Origin: an uncultured Clostridia bacterium
GTDB lineage: Bacteria > Bacillota_A > Clostridia > Oscillospirales > Oscillospiraceae
Assembly: GCA_946408145.1 (NCBI GenBank)
Contig: CAMJQX010000113.1
Span: 1 to 5,613 of the forward strand
Direction of reading: 5' to 3'
Length of the DNA: 5,613 bases
Part shown: positions 1 to 5,613 of the stretch, in pieces
Position numbering within the stretch: the stretch's first letter is position 1
Layout of the letters: every line of letters starts with the position of its first letter
Program-made: the position numbers and the translations under genes
The notes under the pieces: generated by a model
What the model saw: the letters and a program-made list of their open reading frames with translations, nothing else
Told to the model about the DNA's origin: nothing
Databases searched by the model: none

Positions 1-2099
1 GCTGCGCTCCAGCCGTGGTTATAGGTGCCCACATTGTCGTTGAACTGCTCCCAGAGCGTGTCCCACTCGTCATGGAGCATCGGATCGTAGCGATCGAGCA
101 TCCGCTGCACAGCCAGATCGACACGGCCCATGACGCACAGCGCCTCCAGCACGTATTTCTCGGTAAAGGGGCTTGCCTCACAGGTGCTCGTCAGCACAGC
201 GCAGATCTGCTCATAGTCGCTCTCGTCAGCCAGCCCGGATAGAGCCAGCATGGCGTTCGCCCGATCATCCACGTTCTTGCTGTTTGCGCTGCGGAAGCCC
301 TCCGGCGTCGTATACGCCTCGCGCCATGCGGCCTTCATGGAATCCATCCGCTCGGTGAGAAACGCCTCGTCGTCCGTAATGGCGAGATCCGCCGCCAGCT
401 GACGCGTCAGATTCAATGCGTAATAATACAGGCCCACCTGCAGCAGCTCCGCGTCGATCTTATTGCCCCAGTCGTTCCACTGCCAGGAGCCCGCGCGGTA
501 TTTGGGCAGTCCGTTTTCCATCTCAAAGAGCTTGAGGTAATCGACGAAGGCCCGGTAATAGGCCGTCATGGTCTCGCTGTCGCCTGAATGGAGCCAGTAG
601 TGATAAGCGCTGGACATAAAGGCCAGGCTTTGGTTGGGGATCTCCTGCGGCTTGACGCTGGGGGCGCGGCTGGGGATCGCGCCGGAGTCTGTGGTCCAGG
701 CCACGCAGGCAAGGATCGCCTTTTTCGTCATGGCGAGCGCCCCCTCGTCATAGCCGTAGAGCGCGGCGTCGATCTGGTTGGAGGCGTCTCCCATATAGGG
801 GCCGCGCTCCCGCTCGGGGCAGTCCATGTAGGTGTCGCGCATGCAGATGGCGACGGTGTTCAGGCTCTCCTGCCACAGCTGATCCAGCGCGGCGTCGGAG
901 GAGCGGAAGGGCTCGACCCAGTCGCCGTTGAATTCGCTCTTGCGGTAGCCGAGCTTCGTAAAGGTCACGCCGGCCTCGGCCTCGATGATCAGCCTGGAGC
1001 CGGAGCGCCAGGGATAGTTTTCATAGCGCTGTGCGCCGGCTGCGGTGATGTAGGTGTCCTTGAAATTGGGGATGTTCTCCCGATCGGTATAGGTGTCGGT
1101 ATAGAAAGTCAGCTTTTTGCCGGCAGGCGCTTCCAGCTCGAAATACGCCGTGAACTGGATGTTTCCGGGCAGCTCCAGCACCAGGGTGGTGTCCTCGGTC
1201 AGCTCACGGTTCAGATAATCGGCGGCGTTGAGGCAATCGCTCAGTTCGTGGAAGCGGATCGGGAGGATGATCGGCGCATAGAGCGCGCCGAAGGGCAGAT
1301 CCCCGGGCCTGGCAATCAGGCTCGCATTTTCCCATGCGGAGTCGTCGTATCCGAGGCTCGTCCAGTCGCCGAGATCGTCACGGGCGTCAAAGAAAACGTT
1401 GCGCTCGGCCAGCATGGAGGATTGCTCATAACGAACATAATCCGCGCCGCCTGTCACGCGGTTTTTGTACGCCGTGTGGCGCTGAGCCTTCCAGCTTGCG
1501 TCAGACGCGATGATCGTATTGCCGAGCTTCATTTCAAACAGCAGGCCGGCCTGGGGGTATTCGTCCCCCTCTTCGTCCACGATTACAGGCATGATGGAGC
1601 CGTCGCCGCTGCGGCCGTTGAACGCAGCAAGCAGCGCGACGACATTCTCGCCGGCCTGGAGGTTTGTGATCTCCACCTCGTCGTAATAAGAGTCATAGGG
1701 CGTGGGCCCGCGCTTGAGCGAGCCGTCCAGAACCGTCAGCTCGCCGTTTATCCAGAGGACGTATTTGTCCGCCGCGGAGATGAAGGCCGTCGCCGAGGGC
1801 ACAGCCTCGTCCAGCGTAAAGGTTTTGCGGAAGGCAACGTAGCTGTCCTCGGAGCAGGCCTCCGTCCAGATCCAGTTGCCCGTCCAGTCGCTCTTCCGGT
1901 AGGCCTCGATGGCCTCCGTATATTTCAACTCGGAGCGGTCCGGCGCACCTCTGTCCGGGACGGCAGCCGTCTCCGCACTCTCCGCCGTTTCTGAGGGCAC
2001 GGACGCCGGCTCGCCGCTGTCCCCGCAGGCGGCGAGGCTCAGGGCGGAGGCGAGACAGAGCAGAAGGGCGATCCATCTGGCAAAGCGTTTCTTTTTCAT
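1..2099 (-). CDS. GH78-type alpha-L-rhamnosidase, lipoprotein (3' end outside window)
   Basis: Likely hydrolyses terminal alpha-L-rhamnose from glycosides on the cell surface, by the inverting mechanism of family GH78. Seen: 699 codons with no stop to the window edge. A type II signal peptide starts MKKKRFARW, followed by a hydrophobic core and lipobox LAAC (lipidated Cys25), then an Asp/Glu/Ser/Thr-rich linker to about residue 55. Residues ~60-240 resemble the lectin-like N-terminal domain of rhamnosidases (FRKTF, WINGEL, YYDEVEIT). Residues ~265-395 fit the second beta domain. The (alpha/alpha)6 catalytic domain starts near 400. The motif DCPERERGPYMGDA supplies Asp426, Glu431 and Asp438, with the same spacing as the acidic residues Asp567, Glu572 and Asp579 reported for Bacillus RhaB. 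Glu684 in TLWEQF, followed by NHGWSA, is the likely counterpart of the general base. Family members are usually about 900 residues, so the end of the barrel and the C-terminal beta domain are probably missing here. The start was chosen for its strong ribosome binding site and signal peptide. It is transcribed divergently from the GH3 gene. Substrate and linkage are not determined. Confidence 0.88.
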   Translation of the reverse strand, partial: MKKKRFARWIALLLCLASALSLAACGDSGEPASVPSETAESAETAAVPDRGAPDRSELKYTEAIEAYRKSDWTGNWIWTEACSEDSYVAFRKTFTLDEAVPSATAFISAADKYVLWINGELTVLDGSLKRGPTPYDSYYDEVEITNLQAGENVVALLAAFNGRSGDGSIMPVIVDEEGDEYPQAGLLFEMKLGNTIIASDASWKAQRHTAYKNRVTGGADYVRYEQSSMLAERNVFFDARDDLGDWTSLGYDDSAWENASLIARPGDLPFGALYAPIILPIRFHELSDCLNAADYLNRELTEDTTLVLELPGNIQFTAYFELEAPAGKKLTFYTDTYTDRENIPNFKDTYITAAGAQRYENYPWRSGSRLIIEAEAGVTFTKLGYRKSEFNGDWVEPFRSSDAALDQLWQESLNTVAICMRDTYMDCPERERGPYMGDASNQIDAALYGYDEGALAMTKKAILACVAWTTDSGAIPSRAPSVKPQEIPNQSLAFMSSAYHYWLHSGDSETMTAYYRAFVDYLKLFEMENGLPKYRAGSWQWNDWGNKIDAELLQVGLYYYALNLTRQLAADLAITDDEAFLTERMDSMKAAWREAYTTPEGFRSANSKNVDDRANAMLALSGLADESDYEQICAVLTSTCEASPFTEKYVLEALCVMGRVDLAVQRMLDRYDPMLHDEWDTLWEQFNDNVGTYNHGWSA

Positions 2100-2132: not shown

Positions 2133-2161
2133 ATTGTACGGAAAAAGCAGGAGGGGAAAAA
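2133..2161 (-). promoter_or_regulatory. Candidate promoter of the rhamnosidase gene
   Basis: On the minus strand, TACAAT (2138-2133) matches the -10 consensus at 5 of 6 bases. Seventeen bp upstream the -35 position holds TTTTTC (2161-2156), a poor match to TTGACA. A good -10 with a weak -35 is typical of an activator-dependent promoter. The end of the large dyad (2166) lies 4 bp upstream of this -35, where an activator would contact RNA polymerase. Transcription would start near 2126, giving a leader of about 27 nt. This is pattern-based only; no start-site data are available. Confidence 0.45.
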
Positions 2162-2165
2162 GACT

Positions 2166-2229
2166 TATCGCACAACCTTGACGCGAAGCGGCACAAGCTT
2201 ATGCTGCCCTGCGGAAAGGCTGTGCGATA
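2166..2229. promoter_or_regulatory. Shared operator: 64-bp dyad of four GCACAANCTT-like half-sites
   Basis: Seen: the sequence is an imperfect inverted repeat centred between 2197 and 2198. The outer 14-bp arms (2166-2179 and 2216-2229) match at 13 of 14 positions, and the central 20 bp (2188-2207) is a near-palindrome around AAGCTT. Within it are four related decamers: plus-strand GCACAACCTT (2170-2179) and GCACAAGCTT (2191-2200), and minus-strand GCATAAGCTT (2204-2195) and GCACAGCCTT (2225-2216). Each same-strand pair is spaced exactly 21 bp, two helical turns. Known: direct half-sites about 21 bp apart are typical of AraC/XylS-family activators such as AraC at araI. Inferred: one regulator bound here controls both divergent transcripts. 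The proposed start points lie outside the dyad, so it is more likely a DNA site than an RNA hairpin. Confidence 0.7.
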
Positions 2230-2233
2230 TTCC

Positions 2234-2262
2234 TTGTATGATCTGCCGGTTGTGCTATCCTC
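2234..2262 (+). promoter_or_regulatory. Candidate promoter of the GH3 operon
   Basis: TTGTAT (2234-2239) and TATCCT (2257-2262), with a 17-bp spacer, are weak -35 and -10 matches (3 of 6 and 4 of 6). They would hardly be called alone. They are listed because they fall exactly at the mirror positions of the rhamnosidase promoter elements about the operator centre, 4 bp beyond the operator edge. A start near 2269 would leave a leader of about 24 nt before the ATG at 2293. Alternatives are TATGAT at 2237-2242, which lacks a -35, and TTGACG (2178-2183) with TATGCT (2200-2205) inside the operator. Confidence 0.35.
2246..2255 (-). promoter_or_regulatory. Fifth, partial operator half-site
   Basis: The minus-strand decamer GCACAACCGG shares its first eight bases with the half-site GCACAACCTT. 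It lies 30 bp from the nearest half-site of the dyad, inside the -35/-10 spacer of the candidate GH3 promoter. If the regulator binds there it could modulate or repress that direction. It has no mirror partner on the rhamnosidase side. It may also be a chance match. Confidence 0.35.
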
Positions 2263-2292: not shown

Positions 2293-5241
2293 ATGAAAAG
2301 AAAGAACCGCTGGAAGCTTCCCACTGTATTGGCTGCGATCCTTGCCGTGATCCTCATGGCGGCGATCCCGGTCACGAACTACTACGCAACCATGATCAAC
2401 GCAGCGCTGGGCGCGGAAACGCAGAGAATCCTTCCCGATCCCGACGCGCAGATTTTTTACTGGACAGAGTATGACAGCGAGGAGGAGCTGAGCGCCAACG
2501 ACTGGGCGGTCTGCCGCCAGGTGGAAGCGGAGGGCGCCGCGCTCCTGCTCAACCGCGACCATGCGCTGCCGCTGGCCCCGGATGCAAAAATTTCACTCTT
2601 TTCCCAGTCGGCCGCCGACCCTGTTCTGACCGGAACAGGCTCCGCCTTTATGGCTACAGGCGACGCGGTGAGCTTATACAGTGCGCTGGAGGACAGCTTC
2701 GCTCCCGGCTGCGTCAACACCGAGCTGTGGAAGTTCTATAAGACCTCCGGCTATAAGCGGGTCAACGCCGACCTCTCCGGCGGAAGCCCCGATCAGTACC
2801 GCATCAACGAGGTACCCTGGGAGAAGTATCCCGACGCGCTCAAGAGCAGCTTCGCCGACTTCGGCGACTGCGCCATCGTCGTCTTCTCCCGTTCCTCCGG
2901 CGAGGGCGCGGATCTGCCCTCCGGGCTGGAGAGCCTTGCGGCGTACATGACGGACGGAGACTATCTGCAGCTCTGCCGGGAGGAGCGGGAGCTTCTCGAA
3001 AACCTGCAGGCGCTCAAGGAAGAGGGCGTCTTCCAAAAGATCGTGGTGCTGCTCAACTCCTCCAGCACGCTGCAGCTGGATTTCATCGACGATTACGATC
3101 TTGACGCCGTGCTCTGGGTCGGAAATCTGGGCATGAACGGCATCCCCGCGGTGGCTGATATCCTGGCGGGCAAGGTCAATCCCTCCGGCCGGATTGTGGA
3201 TACCTTTCTCAAGGACAACCATGCTTCTCCCGCCATGGCAAACTACAACGCCTTCCCGTACACAAACGCGGAGGCCTACGGGCTTGCTGCCGCGCAGAAC
3301 AACACAGCGCCCGGTATCGACAAATGCAACCTGAATTACGTCGTCTATCAGGAGGGGATCTATGTCGGCTACCGGTATTTTGAGACGCGCTACGAGGACT
3401 ATGTGCTCGGTCAGGGCAACGCGGGTGATTTTGACTACAGCGCGGAGGTCGCCTTCCCCTTCGGTTACGGCCTCAGCTACTCCGATTTTGTCTACTCGAA
3501 TTTTGCCGTCGAGGATGCGGGCGAGAGCCTGACGGTAAGTGTCGACGTGAAAAACGACTCCGCTGTTGACGGCAAGCACACGGTGCAGATCTACTTCCAG
3601 TCTCCGTATACCGAGTATGACCGCCTGAACGGGGTGGAAAAGGCCTCGGTGGAGCTCTGCGGCTTCGACAAAAAGGAGATCGCCGCGGGCACGACGGAAC
3701 ACTTTACGATCTCTGTCCGCAAGGACGATCTGACAAGCTATGACGCCAATCAGGCGCAAACCTATATCCTCGACGCCGGGGATTACTACTTTACTGTCGG
3801 CACGGACGCCCACAACGCCGTCAACAACATCCTGCTGGCAAAAGGGGCCGAGGAAGGACGCCTGATCGGCTCCGGCGACGCCTCTCTTACCGCAAAGTGG
3901 ACGGTCGCCGAGCTGGATACTGCGACCTATTCCCGTTCCAGCTATACCGGCAATCCGATCACCAATCAGTTTGACAACGCCGATCTGAACAAATACGAGG
4001 GCGCCGACGGGCAAAGCGTGACCTATCTCAGCCGTGCCGACTGGCTCGGCACCTGGCCGAGCACACAGCGTCTTTCCGTCACCGAAGCCATGTGGGCCGA
4101 CGGGCTGACCCATGAGGAGAGCGGCCGCGCCGCCATCGCCGAAAAAATGAAGGCGCTTTATTATGCCGATGCCGTGCCTGCGGAAACGGGAAAAAGCGGG
4201 AGCCTGAACGCCATTGATTTCGTAGATGTCGATTACAGCGATCCGGCCTGGGAGGAGCTGATTTCCCAGATCGGCTATGCGGATATGCTGGAGCTTGTGT
4301 ACAACGGCGCATACAACACCAAGGCGCTTCCCGCCATCAATCTCCCTGCCACGCAGGAGATGGACGGCCCTACCGGCTTCACCAAGAGCCTCATGGGCGG
4401 CGGCAGCGGCATGGCCTTTACTTCCGAGGACGTCATGGCTGCCACCTTTAACCGTGCGCTGATCACGGCGGTGGGCAAATGCATCGGCGAGGATATGATG
4501 CACGGCAATCAGGGCGCAAACGCCTCTGCCATCGCCGGCATCTATGCGCCCGGCGCCAACATTCACCGCAGCCAGTACCTCGGCCGCCACAACGAGTATT
4601 ACTCCGAGGACGGATGGCTCTCCGGAGAGATCTGCGCCGCGGAGGTGCAGGGCATCCGGGATCGGGGCGCGCTGGCCTTTGTCAAGCATTTCGCGCTCAA
4701 CGATCAGGAGGAAGGGCGCTACGGCATCTCCGTCTGGGCCAATGAACAGGCGATCCGCGAGCTGTATCTGGAGCCCTTTGAGGGGGCTGTCCGCGGGGGC
4801 GCCATGAACGTGATGTCCAGCTTCAACCGCATCGGCGTGGTCTGGTCCGGCTCCCACCGCGGTCTGATGACCGGCGTGCTCCGCGAGGAATTCGGCATGG
4901 AGGGCGCTGCCATCACCGATATGTCCATGAACGCCAAATGGATGGACTACCGCCTTGGCGTGCTGGCCGGTCAGGACTACTGGTGCGGGCAGAAAGGCGG
5001 CATGGGAACCTTGGACGGTTCAGAAGCCGATCCCGCGCTGAGCAGCGCTGTGGCAAGAGCGGCGAAAAATGTGGTCTATTCCGTGACGAGGACCAACGCC
5101 ATGAATATCGGCAACGCCACCGTGATCGCCGTCACGCCGACGTGGCAGATCGCCCTGAGAGCGGCTGCAGGCATCGTGTCCGCTTTCACGGTTGTGGGTA
5201 TTCTTTTCTGGATTCGGTTTGAAAGGAGAAAGAACGCATGA
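2293..5241 (+). CDS. GH3 glycosidase with reversed domain order, membrane-anchored (beta-glucosidase-like)
   Basis: A 982-residue retaining beta-glycosidase, probably releasing beta-linked glucose or a similar sugar outside the cell. A basic N-terminus (MKRKNR) and hydrophobic segment (~9-27, no lipobox) form a signal peptide or anchor. Residues ~70-385 are the alpha/beta sandwich that is normally C-terminal: EGAALLLN from Glu80, SSGEGADL with Glu204 as likely acid/base, NPSGRI, and EGIYVGYRYFET. FPFGYGLSYS (from 388) leads into an FnIII-like domain to ~512. The TIM barrel follows (~575-930), with DGPTG (Asp691), KHFALNDQEEGR (Lys798, His799) and GAAITDM, whose Asp876 is the expected nucleophile. 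A second hydrophobic helix (~955-975) ends in RFERRKNA. Sandwich before barrel is the reverse of most GH3 enzymes but is known in R. albus and B. fibrisolvens beta-glucosidases. Its stop overlaps the next gene's start by 4 bp. All expected catalytic residues are visible. Exact sugar specificity (glucose, xylose or other) cannot be read from the sequence. Confidence 0.92.
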   Translation: MKRKNRWKLPTVLAAILAVILMAAIPVTNYYATMINAALGAETQRILPDPDAQIFYWTEYDSEEELSANDWAVCRQVEAEGAALLLNRDHALPLAPDAKISLFSQSAADPVLTGTGSAFMATGDAVSLYSALEDSFAPGCVNTELWKFYKTSGYKRVNADLSGGSPDQYRINEVPWEKYPDALKSSFADFGDCAIVVFSRSSGEGADLPSGLESLAAYMTDGDYLQLCREERELLENLQALKEEGVFQKIVVLLNSSSTLQLDFIDDYDLDAVLWVGNLGMNGIPAVADILAGKVNPSGRIVDTFLKDNHASPAMANYNAFPYTNAEAYGLAAAQNNTAPGIDKCNLNYVVYQEGIYVGYRYFETRYEDYVLGQGNAGDFDYSAEVAFPFGYGLSYSDFVYSNFAVEDAGESLTVSVDVKNDSAVDGKHTVQIYFQSPYTEYDRLNGVEKASVELCGFDKKEIAAGTTEHFTISVRKDDLTSYDANQAQTYILDAGDYYFTVGTDAHNAVNNILLAKGAEEGRLIGSGDASLTAKWTVAELDTATYSRSSYTGNPITNQFDNADLNKYEGADGQSVTYLSRADWLGTWPSTQRLSVTEAMWADGLTHEESGRAAIAEKMKALYYADAVPAETGKSGSLNAIDFVDVDYSDPAWEELISQIGYADMLELVYNGAYNTKALPAINLPATQEMDGPTGFTKSLMGGGSGMAFTSEDVMAATFNRALITAVGKCIGEDMMHGNQGANASAIAGIYAPGANIHRSQYLGRHNEYYSEDGWLSGEICAAEVQGIRDRGALAFVKHFALNDQEEGRYGISVWANEQAIRELYLEPFEGAVRGGAMNVMSSFNRIGVVWSGSHRGLMTGVLREEFGMEGAAITDMSMNAKWMDYRLGVLAGQDYWCGQKGGMGTLDGSEADPALSSAVARAAKNVVYSVTRTNAMNIGNATVIAVTPTWQIALRAAAGIVSAFTVVGILFWIRFERRKNA
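5223..5229 (+). promoter_or_regulatory. Ribosome binding site of the Ig-like lipoprotein gene
   Basis: AAGGAGA within the last codons of the GH3 gene, 8 nt before the ATG at 5238. With the ATGA stop/start overlap it indicates translational coupling in one operon. Confidence 0.75.
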
Positions 5242-5613
5242 AAAGATGGCTCCCCTTACTGTTTGTATGTCTTCTGCTTCTCGCGGGCTGCTCAGGAAGC
5301 CCGGCGAAAGAGAGCGCGCAAACAGAAACCCCGCAGCAGGCATCGGAAACAGCCGTTCCCGACGCCGAACCTACCTTGGAAAAGCTCGAGATCGTGTCCA
5401 AGCCGGTGAAAATGAATTATGATTCCGGCGATACCTTCGATCCGACCGGTCTGCGGATCGACGCGCACATGTCCGACGGAAGCGTTCTCGAGGATGTGGC
5501 ATGGGAGATCGAAAACCCGATCATCGGCCCCAAAACCAGCGCGGTCAATATCAGCTGCATGGGCACGCGCCTGATGCTCTCCGTCACCGTAACCGTGAAG
5601 GGCAACACAGATC
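5238..5613 (+). CDS. Lipoprotein with bacterial Ig-like domain (partial, C-terminus outside window)
   Basis: Only the first 125 codons are present. MKRWLPLLFVCLLLLAGC is a type II signal peptide with lipobox LAGC, so Cys18 should be lipidated and the protein held on the outer face of the membrane. Residues ~19-48 form a linker rich in Ala, Glu, Gln, Thr and Pro. From ~49 the sequence resembles a bacterial Ig-like domain of the Big_3/Big_4 type: the segment YDSGDTFDPTGLRI, then a SDGS turn, and strands ending in LSVTVTVKG. Such domains act as spacers or weak carbohydrate- or wall-binding modules in surface enzymes of Firmicutes and do not reveal the main function, which must lie downstream. 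The 4-bp overlap with the GH3 gene and its own Shine-Dalgarno sequence suggest it is co-expressed with that enzyme. A further glycosidase or a binding protein is plausible, but this is inference. Confidence 0.85.
   Translation, partial: MKRWLPLLFVCLLLLAGCSGSPAKESAQTETPQQASETAVPDAEPTLEKLEIVSKPVKMNYDSGDTFDPTGLRIDAHMSDGSVLEDVAWEIENPIIGPKTSAVNISCMGTRLMLSVTVTVKGNTD

Follow-up and report, generated by a model that had tools for sequence, protein, structure and literature searches.

Two probable LytTR-type tandem operators, fused head-to-head, between divergent GH78 and GH3 genes of an uncultured Clostridia bacterium

The closest described counterparts of the element reported here belong to response regulators of the LytTR class, whose published accounts we cite from parts of the respective papers. 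At yhjX, the Escherichia coli LytTR response regulator YpdB recognizes a direct repeat of the form decamer-N11-decamer, and losing site A of this repeat abolishes binding (PMC4847170). The LytTR systems of Streptococcus mutans use repeats that are mostly 12 bp apart and located about 4–11 bp upstream of the −35 element (PMC6193735), and in Clostridium perfringens the −35 element is directly preceded by VirR boxes, for which the spacer is given as 7–8 nt (PMC2838878). In Butyrivibrio proteoclasticus B316, each of three LytTR response regulators is encoded near a secreted glycoside hydrolase of family 3 (GH3) with a C-terminal transmembrane helix (PMC2914790), and one LytTR regulator is part of an arabinoxylan locus in Roseburia (PMC5320581). 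Here, we analyzed a 5,613-nt stretch of DNA from an uncultured Clostridia bacterium of the Oscillospiraceae (contig CAMJQX010000113.1 of assembly GCA_946408145.1; hereafter the window), in which a 64-bp imperfect palindrome at positions 2166–2229 separates a GH78-type gene from a divergently oriented GH3 gene. Judged from its sequence and that of its relatives, this dyad very probably represents two LytTR-type tandem operators arranged head-to-head, from which a receiver (REC)-LytTR regulator partnered with a GHKL kinase would activate the GH78 and GH3 promoters. The sequence-based support comes from the anatomy of the site, its spacing, its distance to the promoters, the co-occurrence with the regulator and the classes of target genes.

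The palindrome pairs at 24 out of 32 positions. Markov shuffling never reached this score: the highest value was 20 pairs in 2000 shuffled versions of the intergenic region and 21 pairs in 100 of the whole window. It comprises four decamers, namely GCACAACCTT (2170–2179) and GCACAAGCTT (2191–2200) on the plus strand, both without mismatches, and GCATAAGCTT (2195–2204) and GCACAGCCTT (2216–2225) on the minus strand, with one mismatch each. In both pairs the decamers are 21 bp apart from start to start, and the AAGCTT at 2195–2200 is common to the two pairs. The original prediction, which was made from the letters of the window alone, had described four decamers with no more than one mismatch, arranged as two 21-bp direct-repeat pairs that meet head-on at a common AAGCTT centre within a 64-bp imperfect palindrome, and all of this was confirmed. 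It had further proposed that these repeats serve as operators of the two divergent glycosidase genes; the window indeed holds one gene-pointing tandem for each of them. Read from the opposite strand, the decamer becomes AAGGTTRTGC, and each operator of the window takes the form AAGCTTRTGC-N11-AAGGYTGTGCGATA towards its own gene, with the decamer-N11-decamer arrangement present on both strands. The operator facing the GH78 gene (minus strand) consists of the promoter-distal decamer AAGCTTGTGC at 2191–2200 and the promoter-proximal decamer AAGGTTGTGC at 2170–2179, and the one facing the GH3 gene (plus strand) of the distal decamer AAGCTTATGC at 2195–2204 and the proximal decamer AAGGCTGTGC at 2216–2225. 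The two distal decamers overlap by 6 bp (2195–2200), owing to the variant AAGCTT.

Conservation in the closest relative, the uncultured isolate RUG467 (locus L001), is concentrated on the dyad. The GH3 gene is 97.3% identical to that of the window at the DNA level and 98.6% at the protein level. The dyad is identical at 63 of 64 positions, compared to 95 of 129 aligned columns in the two flanks together (34 differ; Fisher p = 5e-6). A fifth decamer copy, the extra half-site GCACAACCGG on the minus strand at 2246–2255 (two mismatches), is lost in RUG467 and is probably not functional.

Scanning genomes with 12 aligned GH3 proteins as the query yielded 54 loci. The unit found there, which the original prediction had missed, is the gene-pointing tandem AAGGTTRTGC-N11-AAGGTTRTGC, mostly as a plain direct repeat without the palindrome. 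Using a single score rule, we counted 56 tandem pairs (43 distinct sequences) with a start-to-start distance of 21 bp. All other spacings from 11 to 32 bp gave 0–3 pairs each, except for 23 bp with 12 pairs, and shuffled versions of the 54 loci (n = 3) gave a mean of 1.7 pairs at 21 bp. The expected conservation of both the decamer and its 21-bp spacing was borne out. Ten of the 12 cases at 23 bp are extra boxes before or after a tandem in five loci (L010, L015, L021, L022 and L025), where, upstream of a lipoprotein gene, the tandem is flanked at a 23-bp distance by two half-site-like boxes, one preceding it and one following its second decamer. In L005 (19177–19228) and L016 (7218–7269), three successive decamers follow each other in 21-bp steps, likewise upstream of a lipoprotein gene.

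The tandems also keep a fixed position relative to a putative promoter. Among 45 distinct tandems (from the 54 loci plus a few more, the window included), 27 have TTG, and 36 have TT, exactly 8 nt past the second decamer, and the best −10-like hexamer follows 17 nt further on in most rows. Some of these pairs, and some of those from the scan of all 54 loci, fall within coding frames and are there probably by chance. The position that distinguishes the AAGCTT variant carries C in 20% of the distal and 9% of the proximal decamers. Applying the geometry of the 45 tandems to the window predicts, for the GH78 gene, the −35 element TTTTTC (2156–2161, minus strand) 8 nt past the proximal decamer and, after a 17-nt spacer, the −10 element TACAAT (2133–2138). 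For the GH3 gene, it predicts the −35 element TTGTAT (2234–2239, plus strand), again 8 nt past the proximal decamer, and the −10 element TATCCT (2256–2261) after a 16-nt spacer; the identical tandem of L001 is part of the 45-pair set. Both operators of the window thus follow the 8-nt distance rule with either TT or TTG, and purine-rich ribosome-binding sites are found downstream of both predicted promoters. This anatomy is that of LytTR tandems, with repeats within 9–11 nt, a spacer within 11–13 nt and a short, fixed distance to the predicted −35 element.

The nearest genes downstream of the sites include those for lipoproteins and enzymes of the families GH3, GH78, GH2 and GH43. The lipoprotein targets form a conserved family of roughly 205–220 residues in our alignment, and the one member scanned had no Pfam match. 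GH78-type lipoprotein-like targets were found in L009, L028, L007 and, in part, L105, a GH43 target in L030, and GH2 targets in L042 (behind a weak site) and at position 26435 of contig C159 of the sister genome G001. In L009, a GH78 and a GH3 gene share one strand behind a single tandem, and relatives of both genes of the window have a tandem of their own in other genomes; the latter is the main argument that the dyad consists of two operators and is not a single palindromic site. The use of rhamnosides, for which the element had originally been suggested, is weakly supported by these targets: GH78-type genes may point to it, but they constitute just one of several target classes. As a separate observation, DUF4956 and CotH genes (3988–6258) follow a GH3 gene in L099 and, on the same contig, are located just before the operator of GH2-GH43 genes.

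A candidate regulator is encoded in the sister genome. Searching G001 (3 Mb) for the operator pattern plus a −35 TTG with up to three mismatches gave four matches, all on contig C159, which correspond to the two dyad halves and to one site each at 14801 and 26339, while the reversed-pattern control gave none. The gene at C159:14004–14717 encodes a response regulator that combines a receiver domain (PF00072) with a LytTR domain (PF04397; 50.3 bits compared to a cut-off of 22.6) and overlaps a GHKL kinase gene (PF14501) at C159:12665–14050. This pair lies approximately 6–8 kb from the dyad, beyond the GH78 gene, so that a REC-LytTR regulator and a sensor kinase are indeed found near the operators. 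The site at 14801 is situated between the regulator gene and a divergent small-lipoprotein gene, which is followed by another GH3 gene. Six genomes gave 13 operator matches on 7 contigs, and for at least 12 of these matches (6 contigs) a LytTR gene is present on the same contig, the figure being a lower bound with five of the six LytTR matches of genome G006 among those listed. The exception is contig C7 of G006, where the site precedes the GH78 gene of L009 and the regulator is encoded on a different contig (L024), which suggests that the regulator acts on this site in trans.

The presence of the site follows that of the regulator. With bit scores measured against the sister-genome regulator (41 regulator matches in the 54 loci), a tandem was located beside the regulator gene in all 23 loci whose regulator scored at least 285 bits, and in none of the 12 loci below 230 bits, where the best tandem score was 13/20; both limits were set after the scores had been seen. 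Among the 23, L024 was counted from a separate tandem scan (site at 2404), as its site fell outside the scanned stretch because of an over-long regulator frame. The set also includes near-duplicates (L018 and L019 of L013, L025 of L021, and L029 of L028), leaving 19 distinct site sequences. In L037 (3965), L044 (3302) and L048 (4631), whose regulators score 253–258 bits, a variant tandem points at the regulator gene itself, suggesting that site and regulator drifted together in these loci. When 200 genomes were drawn evenly from the family, three contained the regulator (>300 bits), all of which had the motif (up to two mismatches), and four contained the motif; one regulator match, in G103, contains a single in-frame TAG. 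Similarly, among 394 genomes of the order, the regulator (E ≤ 1e-62) was present in two and the motif in four, including both genomes with the regulator. Given that the two draws overlap and that G001 seeded the idea, we consider this strong support rather than a formal test.

Several points weigh against this interpretation. The regulator is seen in the sister genome G001 and not in the window, and its DNA-binding signature reads FARCNNY instead of FhRhHRS (AgrA has FFRCHNS). A different, looser pattern adds one match with three mismatches in G001 on another contig, C131. The loci were gathered by GH3 homology and are hence no random sample, and the consensus and score cut-offs were chosen after the sites had been seen. 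In the 260 bp preceding the GH3 gene, read for all loci but L016 (whose match stops short of the gene start) and thus for 53 of the 54, we found a tandem of at least 16/20 on the GH3 strand for only 14 of the 53 genes (11 distinct sites), of which L052 scored lowest. Many of the GH3 genes without an upstream tandem closely follow another gene, and in the scan of all 54 loci the tandem also occurred upstream of genes other than GH3. Among six regulators of intermediate score (240–265 bits), only that of L046 has a tandem reaching a score of 16 at the regulator gene, the other five loci scoring 13–15, three of them as the variants pointing at the regulator gene. In the family draw, G059 carries the motif, yet its highest-scoring regulator match reaches only 205.8 bits; one of its three sites lies 43 bp from a contig end, and the expected regulator could therefore be missing from the assembly. 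The order draw contained isolated motif matches without the regulator in G500 and G645, which we took as background. Finally, in L003, L006, L004 and L008 a different LytTR-GHKL pair (approximately 154–162 bits) is encoded directly upstream of the GH3 gene, and a second LytTR regulator could thus act on some sites.

This last point bears on the alternative that the LytTR response regulator reading the sites is not the one encoded on the contig but another from the same genome. The sister genome holds seven LytTR matches, and some GH3 genes adjoin another LytTR-GHKL pair; however, the motif follows the group of close orthologues and not the distant paralogues, which makes this alternative improbable. 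Somewhat less probable still is the regulator of the original prediction, according to which both genes would be activated by AraC/XylS-family dimers bound to the direct repeats. Repeats at 21 bp, that is, two helical turns, would suit AraC dimers as well, and the spacing therefore has no discriminating power. An AraC-family gene, which had been expected near the locus, is in fact present on the sister contig (C159:34809–35852), and contig C7 of G006, which bears a site, carries an AraC gene 94% identical to it. Yet, the gene is approximately 28 kb away from the dyad, and no tandem adjoins it on C159. Moreover, tracing this one AraC gene gave a homologue (E ≤ 1e-30) in only 4 of the 13 genomes with sites that were compared, in one case with 31% identity, as against a close orthologue of the LytTR regulator in 12 of the 13, these genomes having mostly been chosen from loci where the site had already been seen. 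Together with a geometry that fits published LytTR operators, these comparisons indicate that the regulator family should be corrected from AraC to LytTR for an operator that the original prediction had most likely spotted correctly.

The dyad could also work as RNA, in the form of a leader hairpin or a terminator, and its predicted fold is indeed stable (−34.5 kcal/mol, z −6.1, equalled by 0 of 200 shuffles), and the minus strand has a single weak match resembling a terminator. However, both predicted promoters are located outside the dyad, which would place it in neither leader; a search of the window against Rfam at gathering scores gave no match; and the relatives mostly have the direct repeat without the palindrome, so that we regard a function as RNA as very unlikely. 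A classical palindrome-binding repressor of the LacI or TetR type, with the dyad as a single inverted-repeat operator, would account for the 64-bp symmetry and for the weaker facing tandems (each scoring 15–16) in L028, L029, L031, L037 and L044, but has next to no probability, as the relatives keep the tandem orientation and the 21-bp spacing and facing tandems that both score at least 18 are confined, in the 54-locus scan, to the window and L001.

Among described systems, those with LytTR regulators are the closest to the locus. VirR boxes, whose targets are virulence genes, presumably share a core resemblance, GTTNTGC, with the decamer of the window. Like the YpdB site, each operator consists of two decamers in direct repeat, 11 bp apart, and would be controlled by a LytS/LytTR-type two-component system, although YpdB recognizes GGCATTTCAT instead of AAGGTTRTGC and has a different target, and the available part of the report describes no fused divergent pair (PMC4847170). 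HdrRM and BrsRM of S. mutans have 9-bp repeats with a 12-bp spacer, hence also 21 bp from start to start, located 8 bp before the −35 element (PMC6193735). As far as that account goes, these systems differ in pairing the regulator with a membrane inhibitor protein rather than a GHKL kinase, and in targeting bacteriocin and competence genes. AgrA resembles the present case in that the direct repeats of a LytTR regulator directly precede each of two divergently oriented promoters, P2 and P3 of agr, but SarA sites lie between the AgrA repeats, and overlapping distal half-sites do not feature in the portion of the paper covered (PMC4227749). With B. proteoclasticus, the locus shares the proximity of LytTR regulator genes to genes for a secreted GH3 protein with a C-terminal transmembrane helix, but the accessible text gives no binding site for the regulators of that species (PMC2914790). 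The operator sequence was not found in the literature searched, which consisted of titles and abstract openings and left subscription papers mostly outside, in keeping with the original prediction, which had recognized no described regulon with this motif. Within this literature, the operator class is known, whereas its sequence specificity, the fusion of two operators and the regulon itself appear to be new.

With respect to the genes of the window, the GH78-type gene (3–2099, minus strand) is cut by the window end, and its translation matches alpha-L-rhamnosidase-like domains (PF17389 and PF08531) and begins with a lipoprotein-like signal peptide. The GH3 gene (2293–5241, plus strand) carries PF01915, PF14310 and PF00933 in this order, meaning that the C-terminal domain (PF01915) precedes the N-terminal domain (PF00933), and its translation has hydrophobic segments at either end. 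The start of a lipoprotein-like gene (5238–5612, plus strand) overlaps the GH3 stop and probably belongs to the same operon; its translation has a weak match, below the family cut-off, to the SP0191-family lipoproteins. At locus L098, genes for a mobilisation-protein-like product (MobC/NikA) and a LexA-like product (S24 peptidase) occupy the contig start (2–1812), hinting at a mobile element nearby.

Under the LytTR interpretation, the GHKL sensor kinase would phosphorylate the REC-LytTR response regulator, and one phosphorylated dimer would bind to each tandem. The bound regulator might then contact the polymerase at the −35 element and recruit it to the GH78 and GH3 promoters, that is, act by activation rather than by repression. 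The two operators would be physically coupled: if a subunit can bind only to a complete decamer, just one of the two distal decamers could be filled at any time, and the promoters would either compete for the central regulator subunit or share it. The original proposal that both genes are activated together stays conjectural, as the 6-bp overlap of the promoter-distal decamers makes full simultaneous occupancy of both operators doubtful. A more far-reaching and still tentative proposal, which we consider possible rather than probable, is that the locus belongs to an undescribed LytTR-GHKL regulon for cell-surface glycan enzymes (a small lipoprotein, membrane-anchored GH3, GH78, GH2 and GH43) that extends across Clostridia of the gut and rumen. 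A head-to-head fusion of two operators of this regulon around a single shared central decamer would then have arisen in the present lineage. The result would be a bidirectional switch, with one dimer either choosing between the promoters, only one being served at a time, or one central subunit bridging both.

From the sequence comparisons, such surface enzymes appear to be switched on by a LytTR control system that related bacteria of the gut and rumen possess as well. The link between LytTR regulators and GH3 enzymes in Butyrivibrio, as far as described in the part of that report available (PMC2914790), would thereby gain a concrete operator sequence and a regulator class. The regulon would become predictable directly from sequence in uncultured gut and rumen Clostridia, and the fused dyad may serve as a natural test of two LytTR tandem operators that share a distal half-site.
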